Of a DNA stretch of 64,000 nucleotides, positions 2,040 through 27,092 are shown piece after piece. Made by a program: the position numbers and the translations under genes. The stretch lies in NCBI RefSeq assembly GCF_000020485.1, contig NC_011899.1, positions 1,334,501 to 1,398,500 of the forward strand, given 5' to 3'. Position 1 is the first letter of the stretch. Every line of letters begins with the position of its first letter. This DNA is from Halothermothrix orenii H 168. GTDB taxonomy: Bacteria; Bacillota; Halanaerobiia; Halanaerobiales; Halothermotrichaceae. The notes beneath the pieces were generated by a model, which was given only the letters and a program-made list of their open reading frames with translations, was not told the DNA's origin and ran no database searches.

Positions 2040-3047
2040 TTACCCCCATGGAGAAGGAAGAAATAATTCCTGTCCCATCTTAATAGCATAACGGTCAGTC
2101 ATACCTGCAATATAATCAATAACCATTTGTTCTATATCTTCATTTCCTTCTTTTTGTTTAAATTCATCAGGGATCTCCCGGGGATGGTCCAGATAATAAT
2201 AATATAGTTTTTTGACCAGATTTTTAGCTTTATTCTCTTCTTTTTTTGCCTTGGAACCGATATATACATTTTCAAAAAGAAATTGCCTTAGTTCAGTGGT
2301 TGCTTCTGCAACATCTCGACTTCTTTTTATAACTGATTTATTCCAGCTTTCCCTGATAATATCCCTCACCATTGTATCTATCCGGTCAGAATGGGTATTA
2401 CCAAGTATCTTGATAGCTGTATGAGGCAAATCTTTTTCACTAATAATACCCCCTCTGAGGGCATCATCAATATCATGGTTAATATAGGCAATTCTATCTG
2501 CAATTTTCACAATTTGTCCCTCCAGGGTAGAGGGATCTTGTTTTCCAGTATGGGTTAAAATTCCATCCCGTACTTCATAGCTCAAATTTAATCCCCTTAA
2601 ATTTGAATTCCTGACCTCAAGGTAATCTACCACTCTGAGGCTCTGGACATTATGGGAAAAACCATTTGAACTTATTTCATCCAGAACCTCTTCCCCGGCA
2701 TGTCCAAAAGGTGTGTGTCCCAGGTCATGCCCCAGAGCAATTGCTTCTGTCAGGTCTTCGTTAAGCCCTAAACCCCTGGCAATAGTTCTGGCAATCTGGG
2801 ATACCTCCAGGGTATGGGTTAATCTGGTCCGGTAGTGATCACCCTCCGGAGCGATAAAGACCTGAGTTTTATGTTTTAAACGCCTGAAGGCTTTAGAATG
2901 AATTATTCTATCCCGGTCCCGTTGAAATATTGTCCTGATATTACACTCATCTTCTGTTTTCAATCGCCCCCTGCTGTTTTTACTTAAACAGGCATAGGGA
3001 GATAAAACCTCTTCTTCAATCTGTTCTATTCTTGTCCTGCCATTCAT
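2040..3047 (-). CDS. dgt: Deoxyguanosinetriphosphate triphosphohydrolase-like protein (dGTPase)
   Basis: HD-domain enzyme that removes triphosphate from dNTPs, classically dGTP to deoxyguanosine. The metal ligands are readable as H78 (RLTHTLEV) and H107-D108 in GHDLGH, and the family motif [19 protein letters not shown] precedes them. At 335 residues it is of the short Firmicutes type. Placement directly before dnaG, in the slot used in many clostridia, suits a role in nucleotide-pool control during replication. True substrate range (dGTP only or several dNTPs) cannot be read from sequence. Confidence 0.93.
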
Positions 3048-3078
3048 ATGAAATACCCCCCTCCCAGGAGAAGCTCAT

Positions 3079-3879
3079 TTATCCATTAAGGTAATCAATA
3101 ACTTCATTGGCTGATTCTTCTATAGATTTATTAGTAACATCAATCACCGGACACCCTATTTTTTCCATTGTCTTTTCGGCATATTCCAGCTCGACATTGA
3201 TCCTGTCAATTGAAGCATAACTGGATTCGGGATCTATCCCCAGTGATTTTAACCTCTCCTGCCTGATTTCATTTAACAATAACGGGTCTATAGTCAAGCC
3301 TATAACCTTATTATCTGGATTCTCATAAATGAGAGGGGTAGGTTCAACTTCAGGAACCAGAGGAATATTGGCTGCTTTATATCCCCGGTATGAAAGATAA
3401 ATACACATTGGCGTCTTTGACGTCCTGGATACCCCGATTAAGACAACATCAGCTTCTTTTACCCCCCGGTCATCATTGGAATCATCATATTTAACTGTAA
3501 ATTCCATAGCCTCAACCCTTTTAAAATAATCCTTATCGAGACGATGAACCAGTCCTGGCTGGAGGCGTGGCTTTTTTTGAAAAAATTCCTCAAAAGCTTC
3601 CATCATTGGACCCATAATATCTACAGCGTAAATATTGTTTTTCCGGGCCAGAGTTGCTATCTCTTCCCTTAAACGGGGGTCTATCAGAGTATAGGCGATG
3701 AGGGTCTTCTGTTCAGTCGCTTTTTTTATGATATTATTTAATTCCCGTGTAGTTTGAACATAGGAAAATCGTTTACTATCTAAATAACCGTTAAACTGGC
3801 TTACAGTTGCATCTACAACATACTGGGCAGTCTCACCGATAGAGTCAGATACAATAAAAATTCGGGGTTTTTCTGTCAT
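3079..3879 (-). CDS. PEP synthase / pyruvate phosphate dikinase regulatory protein (PDRP, DUF299)
   Basis: Bifunctional Ser/Thr kinase and phosphorylase that switches PEP synthase or pyruvate phosphate dikinase off and on at a threonine next to the catalytic histidine. The family opening (IFIVSDSIGETA) and the unusual P-loop GVSRTSKT near residue 150 are present. Length is about 266 residues. The second ATG fits the AGAGGTGG site better than the first. A likely client, PpsA, is encoded about 25 kb away at 29-31 kb. In Bacillus this gene follows ccpN; here the ccpN-like gene sits instead in the ppsA operon. Confidence 0.92.
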   Translation of the reverse strand: MTEKPRIFIVSDSIGETAQYVVDATVSQFNGYLDSKRFSYVQTTRELNNIIKKATEQKTLIAYTLIDPRLREEIATLARKNNIYAVDIMGPMMEAFEEFFQKKPRLQPGLVHRLDKDYFKRVEAMEFTVKYDDSNDDRGVKEADVVLIGVSRTSKTPMCIYLSYRGYKAANIPLVPEVEPTPLIYENPDNKVIGLTIDPLLLNEIRQERLKSLGIDPESSYASIDRINVELEYAEKTMEKIGCPVIDVTNKSIEESANEVIDYLNG

Positions 3880-22835: not shown

Positions 22836-23261
22836 TTATTGTGCCCTGAATCTAAAACCCATCATTATGTCCTGGATATTTTCACCCTCTTCCTCTGTCA
22901 TCTTCCATCTAATCCCGGCTCTAAATTCGGGAAAAATTGTGTATTCTAAACCAAGGACAAAGGTATTATTATTATCATTAAATTTTCCGGAACAGTTAAC
23001 ATTCCAGTTATTATATTTTATACTACCACCGAGGTTTATATAAGAACCTGGCATAAATTTTTCCCGGTTAATATCCAGAGATAATGGAAATATTGAAGCT
23101 TTTAATTTTGCTTTATTAAAAATGGTTTCATCATAAAGTCCCCAGTATACCCGGGTTTTTTTATAATTATCATATTCCACATAATTGCTAAAATATAAAC
23201 TATCTAACAATAATAAATCCAAACCAAGGGAAATCCTCCCGGTCTTTTCACCTCTTTCCAC
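22836..23261 (-). CDS. Barrel-like C-terminal part of a secreted protein split by a -1 frame change
   Basis: A 141-residue reading frame rich in alternating beta strands (GSYINLGGSIKYNNWNVNCSG, FVLGLEYTIFPEFRAGIRW), ending in GFRFRAQ. This resembles the last strands of an outer-membrane barrel, although the final residue is not the usual Phe or Trp. The listed GTG start has no good ribosome binding site. The frame stays open upstream to 23426 and reads PSVKFLNKRELNIFF before it, so this is probably the C-terminal half of the protein at 23357-24097, reached by a -1 shift at the A7 tract. Joined length would be 420 residues. Confidence 0.6.
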   Translation of the reverse strand: MERGEKTGRISLGLDLLLLDSLYFSNYVEYDNYKKTRVYWGLYDETIFNKAKLKASIFPLSLDINREKFMPGSYINLGGSIKYNNWNVNCSGKFNDNNNTFVLGLEYTIFPEFRAGIRWKMTEEEGENIQDIMMGFRFRAQ

Positions 23262-23355
23262 TGACCCATAAATTCTTCTGTTACCTCCCCGCTCTACATC
23301 GATTATAACATCATCACTGTTAAAAAATATATTTAATTCTCTTTTATTTAGAAAC

Positions 23356-23383
23356 TTTACAGAAGGTTTTTTTCTTCTGTAAA
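23356..23383 (-). other. Candidate frameshift or slippage site A AAA AAC inside a hairpin
   Basis: In the mRNA sense, GAA GAA AAA AAC CTT CTG TAA ends the upstream frame; the heptamer A AAA AAC is in the correct phase for a -1 slip, which continues into CCT TCT GTA AAG and the barrel-like frame. The tract A7 is at 23367-23373. A perfect ten-base inverted repeat (TTTACAGAAG and CTTCTGTAAA) encloses it with an eight-base loop, and its 3' arm contains the zero-frame stop. Confidence 0.75.
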
Positions 23384-24097
23384 AATATTGTTCAATGTGG
23401 AGACATTCCCGAGAAGTACAGTCGATTTATCGGTTATTCTGCCTACTTCAATCATTTTAGCTGTTGCATACAGGACTACAAATTTTAATGAATCATTATC
23501 CTCCCTCTTAACCATTAAAAAAACGGGTCTTCTGGTTGTCGGAGTTAAGGATTTAATAGTTTTAATTCTAGAAACCATATCTCTATACTGTATTGAAAAA
23601 TATATTTCGGTTATTATCTTTTTTTGTGAAGTAATTAATTGTTCAGGGACAAGTTTTATTTTAACGGTATTTTCTTTAGTATTAATCATACCATGATTTA
23701 TGTCTTCTATTTTAAACACTACTGGTCTGTCTTCAAGGGTAACCAGGTAAATATCTTGATAATAAAAGCGATGAACCTCAGAATTATTTACATTAATTAT
23801 ATGATTTACTCCCATTAATTCCATTAATTCCGGGTCAGATATAATTACCCAGCCTTTATCAGAAATTTTTTTATTGATATTAACACTGATATCAATATTC
23901 TGTTCAGATTGGTTATTAAATTCAACAAATTTCAATATATATAGTACATTTTCCTGATTTACACTAACTTCTGTATTATTATTTATTTGATTAGAATCTT
24001 GCTTATATTCTATCTTACCACTGGCCTGGACAGGGAGTCCAGCCAGTAATATTATCAGGAAACTTAAAGCAACAACAAAAACCCTGCTATCTATCAT
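23357..24097 (-). CDS. Secreted beta-rich protein of the secretin operon, N-terminal part
   Basis: Signal peptide (residues about 1-26, VFVVALSFLIILLAGLPVQAS) followed by a 220-residue beta-rich region with no family I recognise. It begins with Asn-rich sequence, and the mid part reads QDIYLVTLEDRPVVFKIEDI and KNTVKIKLVPEQL-like strands. The strong AGGAGGA site lies seven bases before the ATG. The zero frame stops nine bases after an A7 tract; the -1 frame continues for 176 residues into a barrel-like domain. It directly follows the secretin gene, so it may be an outer-membrane partner of the secretin. Function is inferred from context only. Confidence 0.65.
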   Translation of the reverse strand: MIDSRVFVVALSFLIILLAGLPVQASGKIEYKQDSNQINNNTEVSVNQENVLYILKFVEFNNQSEQNIDISVNINKKISDKGWVIISDPELMELMGVNHIINVNNSEVHRFYYQDIYLVTLEDRPVVFKIEDINHGMINTKENTVKIKLVPEQLITSQKKIITEIYFSIQYRDMVSRIKTIKSLTPTTRRPVFLMVKREDNDSLKFVVLYATAKMIEVGRITDKSTVLLGNVSTLNNIFTEEKNLL

Positions 24098-24109
24098 ATA
24101 ACTGTCCTC

Positions 24110-25267
24110 CTACTTAATTGTTGGAGTCACAAATATTAATAATTCTCTATCTCCGGTATCATTTACTTTTTTGGTAAAAAGCCATCTTAATAAAGGAATT
24201 TTATTTAATCCAGGTACAGACTTTTTATAATTATAATCATCCTGTAAAGTCATACCGGCTATAACCGCTGTCTGACCACTTGCTACCCTGACTGTAGTAT
24301 CAAGTGTGTTTTCTCTAACTGCTATTTCAGGTAATTTAGAATTTACGAAATGGCTTATTGAAGGTGAGAAATCAAGTATCATTTCATCTTTAGAAATTAA
24401 CCTGGGGGTTACTTTTAAAGAAATACCCACTTTAATATCTTTAAAGTACTCTATTTCCTCATCCTCTGTAATAAATAAGGTCTGTTTTTCTCCAATGAAT
24501 AACTCCGCTGGCTCTCCATCCATGACGACAATACTGGGGTCAGCATGTATTTTAGCCTTTTCCTCTTCCTGTAAAATTTCAAGTCTGGTCAACAAATTTT
24601 CGAATATATTACCATTTAAAACCAGTGATGACCCATCATATTTTAAGTTTAAAGATGGATTATCCTTTTCCCGATATTCAAGAAAACCTGTCCCCAGTTT
24701 TTTGAGTTCTTTTGTTGAAACTTCACTGACTACTACTGTAATTTTAATCTGTTTTCTAGGTTTATCAATCCTCTTAATAAGATTAATTATTTTTTCCATC
24801 TTTGTCGGCGGTGCAGAAATAGATAACATGTCTCCTTTATGGTTTCCATAAACATAATCTTTAAGGTGGGGAGGAAGTATTGATAATACTGTGCTGACAG
24901 ATACATTCTCCAGGTCAACAATCCTGGTATTGATCAGGTCACCAAAATTCCGACTCCCGGGGTCAGCCAGTCCAACCAGATAATAGTTATCCTTATGGTA
25001 AAAGGTATAACCCCCACCAGATAATATTATTTCCAGAGCCTTTTCCAGGGGAACATTATTTAAATCTGCCGTAACAACACCCTCTACTGTATAATCAGGT
25101 ATAATATTTACTCCCGTTTGCAGTGAAATTTCATTGAGGGCTTCCCGTAATGGTGTCTCATAAAACACAATTGTAACCCGGGGTTGACTTTCATCTGCCA
25201 GCAGCACCCCAGTGGTGATTAACAAAAAAATTAATACTAAAACATTAATCCTGATAGACCTGTCCAT
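24110..25267 (-). CDS. Stand-alone outer-membrane secretin
   Basis: Signal peptide 1-24, then an STN/N0-like domain (TIVFYETPLREALNEISLQTGVNI, residues 29-95), one N1-type repeat (RIVDLENVSVSTVLSILPPHL, DMLSISAPPTKMEKIINLIKRIDKP) and the secretin domain, roughly 230-385, with EEEKAKIHADPSIVVMDGEPAELFIG, ASGQTAVIAGMT and the closing VPGLNKIPLLRWLFT...RELLIFVTPTI. At 385 residues it is shorter than type II or type IV pilus secretins (fewer N domains). No ATPase, inner-membrane platform or prepilin peptidase is encoded nearby. A secretin implies an outer membrane. Confidence 0.9.
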   Translation of the reverse strand: MDRSIRINVLVLIFLLITTGVLLADESQPRVTIVFYETPLREALNEISLQTGVNIIPDYTVEGVVTADLNNVPLEKALEIILSGGGYTFYHKDNYYLVGLADPGSRNFGDLINTRIVDLENVSVSTVLSILPPHLKDYVYGNHKGDMLSISAPPTKMEKIINLIKRIDKPRKQIKITVVVSEVSTKELKKLGTGFLEYREKDNPSLNLKYDGSSLVLNGNIFENLLTRLEILQEEEKAKIHADPSIVVMDGEPAELFIGEKQTLFITEDEEIEYFKDIKVGISLKVTPRLISKDEMILDFSPSISHFVNSKLPEIAVRENTLDTTVRVASGQTAVIAGMTLQDDYNYKKSVPGLNKIPLLRWLFTKKVNDTGDRELLIFVTPTIK

Positions 25268-25292
25268 AAGTGTACCCCCTGTTTTCGTCTTT

Positions 25293-25709
25293 TTATTTAA
25301 TAACCCTGATAGAAACAGGTATCTCCTTCTTTTTTATTACTTTTTCTTCTTTATATACTGTAAATATTAAATTTCCCTGCAACCTGTCTTTATCATTATT
25401 TCGTGGCACTTTAAAGGCCACCAATAACCTTCCCTTTTGATAACCTGATAATCTAATATTGTTATTAATAATATCTATCCATGGTTTTAAATCAGGGTTC
25501 TTACAGTTCAGCAGTACCTGAGCAGCAAGATTATTTTTGAGTTTAAAAACCATTGTTTTTCTCTGACCACCATGAAGCTTTATATTTATCCTGTTGGGTT
25601 TTATAATAACACCCTTATCCTTAACAGTGGAATATAAAAAGTCACCCTTTTTTATTTCTATATCCCGGGTTTTAATAACCCGGACATGTTTCCCTATTTT
25701 TAAAAACAC
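25293..25709 (-). CDS. C-terminal Ig-like part of the PapD-like chaperone, split by a -1 frame change
   Basis: 138 residues from a GTG with no clear ribosome binding site. It starts in the middle of a beta strand; upstream in frame it reads RLAAGTYQIR, which completes the GTY-x-I-R-V motif common near the end of PapD-like secreted domains. Residues 40-138 look like a further Ig-like domain (VIIKPNRINIKLHGGQRKTMVFKLKNN). The frame opens only at 25760, just before the A7 tract in the end of the upstream gene, so it is best read as the C-terminal part of a 391-residue protein. Confidence 0.62.
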   Translation of the reverse strand: MFLKIGKHVRVIKTRDIEIKKGDFLYSTVKDKGVIIKPNRINIKLHGGQRKTMVFKLKNNLAAQVLLNCKNPDLKPWIDIINNNIRLSGYQKGRLLVAFKVPRNNDKDRLQGNLIFTVYKEEKVIKKKEIPVSIRVIK

Positions 25710-25714
25710 CCGAA

Positions 25715-25751
25715 TCTGATAGGTACCTGCCGCTAATCTTTTTTTATCAGA
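25715..25751 (-). other. Candidate frameshift or slippage site A AAA AAA inside an inverted repeat
   Basis: In the mRNA sense the upstream gene ends CTG ATA AAA AAA GAT TAG. A -1 slip on the in-phase heptamer A AAA AAA continues into AGA TTA GCG GCA GGT ACC, the frame of the downstream part. The A7 tract is 25739-25745. A seven-base inverted repeat TCTGATA/TATCAGA encloses the site, and AGGT lies a few bases upstream. Confidence 0.72.
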
Positions 25752-26467
25752 CCTGTAATCTTAATAATACTAACGGGATAAACCCTTATGGTAGTATAGT
25801 TTGTCTTTTCAAGTGCCGGACTAATAAGTTTTACCCTGTCTACCAGCCTGTTATTACTGTCTCTAATGGTAGCTTCTCCTGACAGGACACAATCCAGCAA
25901 TGAAGGATTTTTTACATGTACAACCATCCTGGGAAGACCCTCATTATTTTTTCTTAAATCTATATCAAGTATTTTGACCTGAGGTCTAAGCCCCGGGGTT
26001 TTTACCCTGATATTAATCCGGACAGCATACTGAATAACATACTGAAGACCACTTTTATTTTCCTTCCTGGTCCGTAACATAAGAACTACTGTTTTGGTCC
26101 CCCGGGCCTGTAAGGGGACTTTTACTTTTCCTCTGATAACTTTTTTATGCCCGGGGTGTAATATAATTTTTCTTTTATCCAGCTTTACCCATTGAGCCGG
26201 TTCATAACTGTTTAAATCCTGTATTTTACGGTAATTTAAAGACCCATCTATTAGCTGAACTAATTGATATAGAGATACATTTACTTTTTCCTCATGTTTA
26301 TCTGCCGTCAAAACAATCTGGAAGTCTCTTTCCGCCCCCGGTTTGGCTTCAAGGTTTATCACCATTGGAGATACACCGGCTGATTCAACATTATAATTTA
26401 TTAAAACCGCAGATATTAAAGATAAAAAGATACAAATAAATACCTTCCTGAGAAATTTCAAGGTCAA
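25733..26467 (-). CDS. PapD-like periplasmic chaperone, N-terminal part
   Basis: Signal peptide about 1-30, then a PapD-type first domain at residues 31-130 (AGVSPMVINLEAKPGAERDFQIVLTA opening, QWVKLDKRKIILHPGHKKVIRGKVKVP, KTVVLMLRTR). A second Ig-like domain follows from about 133 (PQVKILDIDLRKNNEGLPRMVVHVKNPS). The zero frame ends within that domain, four bases after an A7 tract; the -1 frame supplies the missing strands. The start is TTG (a second TTG is two codons later) behind GGTGGTGACAGG. Such chaperones normally serve usher pathways, but a secretin gene follows here instead. Confidence 0.72.
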   Translation of the reverse strand: MTLKFLRKVFICIFLSLISAVLINYNVESAGVSPMVINLEAKPGAERDFQIVLTADKHEEKVNVSLYQLVQLIDGSLNYRKIQDLNSYEPAQWVKLDKRKIILHPGHKKVIRGKVKVPLQARGTKTVVLMLRTRKENKSGLQYVIQYAVRINIRVKTPGLRPQVKILDIDLRKNNEGLPRMVVHVKNPSLLDCVLSGEATIRDSNNRLVDRVKLISPALEKTNYTTIRVYPVSIIKITGLIKKD

Positions 26468-26491
26468 AATCCTGTCACCACCTTTTTTATT

Positions 26492-26528
26492 AGAAGAAGG
26501 AGGTGTTTATCTGTAACCTCCTTCTTCT
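26492..26528 (-). other. Strong hairpin between the pilin-like and chaperone genes
   Basis: A perfect twelve-base-pair stem (AGAAGAAGGAGG and CCTCCTTCTTCT) with a thirteen-base loop, 16 bases after the stop of the pilin-like gene. On the minus strand it is followed by AATAAAAAAGG, not a T-tract, so it is not a standard terminator. It could act as a 3' stabiliser or partial terminator that raises the amount of pilin-like mRNA over the assembly genes, as in known fimbrial operons. One arm contains an AAGGAGG sequence that it would mask. Confidence 0.7.
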
Positions 26529-26543
26529 TATAAAATTACCCGA

Positions 26544-27092
26544 TCAGTCTACCGGAGGAGCTGAAATTGTAAAAACTACATTTCCTTTGTAAGTACCCGG
26601 GGTTACTTCCCACCAGCCATTATCTGTTGAATCCCACTCTACGCCTTCTTTACTCCATTGTGGTAAAGTCATAGTTACATCAAAAAAATGAACCCCTGGA
26701 TCATCAATATCTATTGTCTTTACAATACTATTCCTAGAATCCAGGGTAAAATCATTATCGGTAGTTCCAGACATAAAATCGAGGGTAAAATCAAGTTCTT
26801 CACCGGTTACTGTATTAACCAACTTACCGAACCGAGCGGTAATAGTCACATTACCATTGGTACGAACCCTTATCTTACCCTCATACAGTTCACTGTTATA
26901 GTCGGGGTCAGCAGTTTCAATTTTAACTGGAACCCCACCATCCATTACGCAGATTTCTCCATAGGTTCCTATTTTTGCCTCTAACCCCAGGGTACTGGTA
27001 CCACCTGAAGTGCTGGCAGCCTGAATGACAAGGGACAAACCAAACAACATTGTCAAACTTAATACCACAGTAAAAATTCTTTTCATGGACAT
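26544..27092 (-). CDS. Secreted pilin-like beta-sandwich protein
   Basis: 182 residues with a signal peptide cut near VIQAAS|TSGG. The mature part is acidic and beta-rich with a single cysteine in the mature chain, and ends GTYKGNVVFTISAPPVD. The GTY-x(4)-V-x-x-T-I ending is like the last strand of spore-coat-U, CS1 and WxL-type sandwich proteins, which suits chaperone-guided subunit assembly. It is the first gene of the operon, with a very good AGGAGG site. I do not recognise a named family. The leader has a six-base TGCAGC/GCTGCA repeat (27116-27148). Confidence 0.68.
   Translation of the reverse strand: MSMKRIFTVVLSLTMLFGLSLVIQAASTSGGTSTLGLEAKIGTYGEICVMDGGVPVKIETADPDYNSELYEGKIRVRTNGNVTITARFGKLVNTVTGEELDFTLDFMSGTTDNDFTLDSRNSIVKTIDIDDPGVHFFDVTMTLPQWSKEGVEWDSTDNGWWEVTPGTYKGNVVFTISAPPVD

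Follow-up and report, generated by a model that had tools for sequence, protein, structure and literature searches.

Secretins are known as the gates of ATPase-driven machines, and, to our knowledge, the chaperone-stabilised β-sandwich fibres of diderm bacteria need an usher. Here, we describe a gene cassette from the diderm Firmicutes, a set of lineages at the heart of the diderm/monoderm question, that was found in a stretch of 64,000 nucleotides of contig NC_011899.1 of Halothermothrix orenii H 168 (the window; coordinates are positions within it, and the genome is a single contig of 2,578,146 bases). The cassette encodes a pilin-like subunit, a chaperone, a short secretin and a fourth protein, with no usher or ATPase, and this combination recurs as a conserved unit in Halanaerobiia and Limnochordia. 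H. orenii is a member of the Halanaerobiales with an outer membrane (PMC2626281).

Several described systems share features with the cassette. Like archaic (Csu-type) chaperone-usher systems, it has several β-sandwich subunits that are exported by Sec and share a conserved C-terminal strand, its own chaperone of immunoglobulin (Ig) fold and one putative outer-membrane platform. In contrast, neither the cassette nor the class has an usher, the chaperone is not detectably related to E. coli FimC, EcpB or YraI, and the outer-membrane position is held by a secretin and a putative secretin-barrel protein. The WxL clusters (WxL proteins with WxLIP, DUF916-DUF3324) have a two-domain WxLIP core of which the cassette chaperone appears to carry a counterpart, and the strand-insertion binding of a β-sandwich partner predicted for WxLIP (PMC10599100) may be common to both; unlike these clusters, the cassette has diderm hosts, a secretin and two extra Ig domains, no transmembrane anchor, and no WxL domain that was detected. 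The secretin, with N0/N1 and C domains and as short as pIV and RcpA, resembles those of the type II secretion system (T2SS), type IV pili (T4P), the Tad system and filamentous phage pIV, whereas the cassette contains no ATPase or type IV pilin and the partner of the secretin appears to be a secretin-like barrel protein. Finally, the TasA/TapA system of Bacillus subtilis also pairs a filament protein with a chaperone that works through strand complementation (title of PMC10151520), but in a monoderm with no outer-membrane pore.

The preliminary description of the window had named four products and their order of transcription, and both were borne out: all genes lie on the minus strand and run from the subunit through the chaperone-like gene and the secretin to the fourth protein. 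The features are as follows.

26544..27092, minus strand: pilin-like secreted β-sandwich subunit, 182 amino acids (aa), with a Sec signal peptide and a C-terminal GTYKGNVVFTIS strand
25293..26467, minus strand: chaperone-like gene, whole (frames joined), split between two frames
25733..26467, minus strand: WxLIP-like chaperone, domains 1-2, open frame of 244 aa (family profile E 5.5e-78)
25739..25745, minus strand: A7 run where the chaperone passes to the -1 frame (A AAA AAA); one frame in relatives
25293..25739, minus strand: chaperone in the -1 frame, remainder of domain 2 and domain 3, 148 aa (profile E 4e-23, model positions 241-396 of 505)
24110..25267, minus strand: short secretin, 385 aa, with STN/N0, one N domain and the secretin C domain, without a C-terminal S-domain
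22836..24097, minus strand: fourth gene, whole (frames joined), split between two frames
23357..24097, minus strand: fourth protein, putative degenerate secretin-like domain, open frame of 246 aa (profile E 1e-27; hhalign to the cassette secretin)
23367..23373, minus strand: A7 run where the fourth gene passes to the -1 frame (A AAA AAC), in the loop of an inverted repeat
22836..23369, minus strand: fourth protein, predicted 12-strand outer-membrane β-barrel domain, 177 aa in the -1 frame (profile E 5e-17; KdgM/NanC-like in an intact relative)

Conservation of the cassette and search for ushers and ATPases

Among 61 related genomes, 17 contained a match to the chaperone at E<=0.01. At E<=1e-5, its profile matched 21 of the 59 genomes of the class, 15 of them strongly, and the same 15 genomes carry a cassette-type secretin at E<1e-90. 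The copy numbers of chaperone and secretin agreed (4:4, 3:3, 2:2) in all cases not interrupted by a contig end. Scanning genome contigs yielded further loci, which belong to Halanaerobiia, Limnochordia and unclassified Bacillota metagenome-assembled genomes. Based on 49 distinct full-length chaperone loci (chaperones of at least 400 aa, both partners sought within 8.5 kb), the secretin and the fourth protein both accompanied the chaperone at 36, while at each of the remaining 13 the contig breaks off no more than about 5 kb away on one side or both. Since these loci were collected via the chaperone, the genome-wide co-occurrence of chaperone and secretin is the independent test.

Two gene orders were found, namely secretin, fourth protein, chaperone (24 cassettes) and chaperone, secretin, fourth protein (12 cassettes), and most cassettes contain two to four subunit genes. 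Regulators of the BTAD/SARP type occur in or beside many cassettes (for example, at L069 6851-8053, L074 6741-7943, L077 6829-8031, L044 8908-10122 and others), with none within the window cassette. Their recurrence suggests dedicated control. No description of such a cassette was found in a literature search that covered few subscription papers.

The absence of an usher and of an assembly ATPase, noted earlier for the H. orenii cassette, extends to its relatives. The usher family PF00577 was found in none of the 59 genomes of the class, with a positive E. coli control, and no plausible assembly ATPase was present in the 36 complete cassettes, where no open reading frame (ORF) exceeds 562 aa and Walker-A-like motifs occur just twice, in a subunit and in a BTAD-type regulator.

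Relationships of the cassette proteins

The second product had been described as a PapD-like chaperone with extra Ig-like domains. The extra domains stand, as the protein appears to consist of a two-domain WxLIP core and two additional Ig domains, but the tie to PapD itself found no support. PF00345 (PapD family) was absent from 18 chaperones among the matches listed (best 25 of 27 Pfam families), and profile comparison gave no link to FimC, EcpB or YraI (hhalign 1.2%). PF06030 was detected in 11 of the 18 chaperones (best 9.8e-6) and PF11797 in four (best 9.2e-7); the WxLIP Pfam scores of the chaperones from the window and from Halanaerobacter jeridensis (L042) were below the curated cut-off. 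Against the PDB, the chaperone profile matched Enterococcus faecium WxLIP structures (EfmWxLIP1) with E 3e-7. A read-through model was built from adjacent subunit and chaperone genes joined with stop codons as Gly, yielding confidence values and DSSP assignments; its Foldseek list was headed by generic multi-Ig proteins, and WxLIP (9i1y/9i25) stood out by TM-score (0.54-0.59 by target). The family alignment ends in polar β-strand sequence, with no transmembrane segment at the C-terminus. In sequence as well as in fold, the chaperone comes closest to WxLIP, and it may have a PapD-like fold in the broad sense. Since WxLIP is predicted to insert a strand into its WxL partner and so complete the partner's sandwich (PMC10599100), it is reasonable by analogy to infer that the cassette chaperone could donate a strand to the subunits.

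That the first product is a secreted β-sandwich protein is supported by its Sec signal and by the family profile, whose PDB matches were CsuE (E 3e-5), followed at weak scores by Caf1, SCPU and CsuA/B. The subunits have Sec-type signals, and none of the 65 family members examined has a type IV prepilin motif or a lipobox. Pfam gave weak SCPU, DUF4402 and PapG_C matches for these 65 proteins at E 0.1, and no WxL family was among the matches listed; NCBIfam offered no name for the subunits tested. Based on these profiles, the subunits resemble archaic chaperone-usher pilins. The modelled subunit has seven strands and a low-confidence N-terminal extension. A conserved stretch of alternating hydrophobic residues lies ahead of the subunit fold, and residues 17-41 of the fusion model are below pLDDT 50. 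Such an unstructured N-terminal stretch would be as expected for a donor strand, although it is not diagnostic and part of the segment is signal peptide.

The third product had been described as a short stand-alone secretin, and its identity as a secretin was confirmed. From its domain matches, the 24110-25267 product is certainly a secretin (PF00263 E 4.3e-34, with STN and Secretin_N), 385 aa long and with no S-domain. It scored below the cut-off of every NCBIfam model matched. By profile, the cassette secretin matches GspD, PilQ, pIV and RcpA, and it is short like the last two.

The fourth protein had been noted for a barrel-like C-terminus. This part was retained as a predicted 12-strand outer-membrane barrel, while the N-terminal part was revised to a probable second, degenerate secretin domain. 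The alignment of 36 fourth-protein members matched the cassette secretin alignment (hhalign 95%, E 4e-8) along 180 collinear columns, which take in most of the secretin C domain, and no such match was obtained in control comparisons with the chaperone, the subunits or E. coli ushers. The weak PDB matches of the fourth-protein profile were all secretins (PilQ, InvG). The secretin Pfam family had no match in 18 members, and the cassette secretins share a conserved VPxLGxIPLxRWLF segment that is missing here. An AlphaFold2 model of the intact H. jeridensis protein (pLDDT 83) showed an alpha/beta N-terminal part followed by twelve C-terminal strands, and Foldseek of these strands retrieved the porins KdgM (TM 0.68 by target) and NanC, which are 12-strand barrels. 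Judging from the alignments and the model, the protein is best explained as the fusion of a second, degenerate secretin domain with a 12-strand outer-membrane barrel. No Pfam or NCBIfam model was found for it; the two halves of the window gene gave Pfam hits to TraT (E 7e-4) and IAT_beta (E 5e-3), which were rejected because both fell below the cut-off and neither recurred in 18 intact relatives. No description of a secretin-barrel fusion of this kind was found in the literature search.

The same genomes also contain sister loci. There, subunits and a shorter homologue of the cassette chaperone (profile E 8e-21) come before a secreted protein of 0.9-1.25 thousand aa. In the arrangements L106 5299-10166, L107 6733-10490, L108 3780-9297 and L109 5328-11009, the chaperone has 272-284 aa and the secreted protein 883-1096 aa. 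The large proteins occupy the position of an usher and were considered as divergent ushers, but this was rejected as they have no profile link to E. coli ushers. A second WxLIP-like locus of H. orenii (L105 2096-8003, about 2.200-2.206 Mb) has no secretin and encodes a pilin-like protein of 164 aa, a chaperone-like protein of 492 aa and then a secreted protein of 1248 aa with CarboxypepD_reg and DUF11. In Halanaerobium kushneri (L046 1-3382), the secretin cassette has a short chaperone (2573-3382) and a sister-type large protein as its direct neighbours.

State of the H. orenii copy

In the window, the chaperone breaks at the T7 run 25739-25745, where the minus strand reads ATA AAA AAA GAT TAG, and the fourth gene breaks at the T7 run 23367-23373, where it reads GAA AAA AAC CTT CTG TAA. 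The joined -1 readings match the family profiles at E 3e-103 (chaperone, model positions 3-396 of 505) and E 2e-47 (fourth protein, model positions 6-432 of 433); because they match intact relatives in this way, the arrangement is not due to chance. The last domain of the chaperone (domain 4, about 110 aa), present in relatives, is missing from the window chaperone. A chaperone without the last Ig domain was also seen in another relative, at L054 6702-7988 (428 aa), with an in-frame TGA within the matched stretch. An inverted repeat of 11 pairs at 23356-23383 encloses the A7 site of the fourth gene.

The heptamers A AAA AAA and A AAA AAC are known -1 slippery forms, and a programmed -1 frameshift was considered. 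Both genes are, however, unbroken and in one frame in relatives, and A/T runs of at least 7 are frequent inside the long ORFs of the window (68 runs), so an ordinary poly-A indel or sequencing error is the simplest cause of both breaks. The copy in the window is probably inactive, phase-off or dependent on slippage. Of these possibilities, we lean towards a pseudogene set in H. orenii, produced by two poly-A indels and the loss of the last chaperone domain, whatever the role of the cassette in relatives. The location of both breaks in A7 runs speaks for it. On the other hand, the frames beyond the breaks run on for 148 and 177 codons without a stop and still match the family profiles (E 4e-23 and 5e-17), and the slippery sites would also allow slippage, phase variation or a sequencing error, the assembly being partly from 454 data (PMC2626281). 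This question concerns the H. orenii copy only and is independent of the pathway readings below.

Proposed export pathway and its alternatives

Based on the above results, we suggest, at about even chances, that the cassette encodes a chaperone-assisted export pathway for surface fibres (or a surface coat) in diderm Firmicutes, with an outer-membrane platform formed by the secretin and its secretin-barrel partner. The β-sandwich subunits, usually two to four per cassette, would be exported by Sec and held in the periplasm by the dedicated multi-Ig WxLIP-like chaperone. They would then pass the outer membrane via the short secretin, and the fourth protein, with its putative degenerate secretin domain and 12-strand barrel, would partner the secretin and stand in for the usher, either as an anchor or as the platform for assembly. 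Donor-strand exchange, in place of an ATPase, would drive polymerisation, the alternating-hydrophobic N-terminal stretch of the subunits, unstructured in the model, being the candidate donor. The gene content, the homologies, the conservation and the lack of ushers and of cassette ATPases are observed, and strand donation by the chaperone, a complex of the two outer-membrane proteins, fibre formation and ATPase independence are expected features of the pathway. More tentatively, the cassette may represent a separate class of fibre assembly, in which a WxLIP-type protein chaperones the subunits and donor-strand exchange threads them through a secretin ring, with the secretin-barrel fusion as its cap or anchor and with neither usher nor ATPase. 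The lack of an usher keeps the cassette out of the chaperone-usher systems, the lack of an ATPase and of type IV pilins among its genes out of the T2SS/T4P, and the lack of a WxL domain and of an anchor out of the WxL clusters.

Several points weigh against the fibre-export pathway. WxLIP proteins are described as wall anchors and not as assembly chaperones, the read-through model of subunit and chaperone (pTM 0.54) yielded no interface evidence, and the match of the subunits to CsuE lies mainly over the C-terminal half. Two genes of the H. orenii copy are frameshifted. In addition, T2SSE ATPases are present elsewhere in 55 of the 59 genomes of the class, and one of them could be borrowed; the literature search found no experiment on any cassette member.

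The relationship of the chaperone to WxLIP would also fit a diderm counterpart of the WxL surface coat, in which the secretin pair would serve for export alone and the WxLIP-like protein would anchor β-sandwich coat proteins to the peptidoglycan or surface, or stabilise them there, with no fibre and no donor-strand polymerisation. WxL clusters likewise pair a small and a large β-sandwich WxL protein with one WxLIP (PMC10599100). Nevertheless, we consider this unlikely, as the subunits gave weak matches to SCPU, DUF4402 and PapG_C and a match to CsuE, with no WxL family among the Pfam matches listed, and the chaperone carries two extra Ig domains and shows no C-terminal transmembrane segment. 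The wide occurrence of T2SSE raises another explanation, namely an accessory secretin-dependent export branch run by the type IV pilus or T2SS ATPase of the cell, with the cassette secretin as an extra gate. PMC2626281 places two H. orenii secretins, Hore_06090 and Hore_18620, in T2SS-type operons, and the two full-length T2SSE genes of H. orenii among the matches listed lie at 0.65 and 2.00 Mb, the cassette being at 1.36 Mb. We regard this explanation as somewhat less probable still, given the complete cassettes without an ATPase and the 65 subunits without a prepilin motif. It is also worth noting that in G045, a draft genome (93% complete) with two cassettes, neither T2SSE nor T2SSF was found; this is suggestive of ATPase independence, although absence from a draft is not proof.

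A cassette joining a secretin to such subunits and their chaperone, together with a second secretin-like barrel protein, would break both the rule that ties secretins to ATPases and the rule that ties these fibres to an usher. The fourth protein would define a new family of outer-membrane proteins combining a degenerate secretin with a 12-strand barrel. If the proposed pathway is true, it is an undescribed way of bringing fibres across the outer membrane, and a separate class of fibre assembly, if real, would suggest that the strand-complementation coats of Gram-positive bacteria and the chaperone-usher fibres of Gram-negative bacteria share a chaperone principle kept in diderm Firmicutes. Such a cassette would also make the passage of fibres through the outer membrane of these bacteria accessible to experiment.
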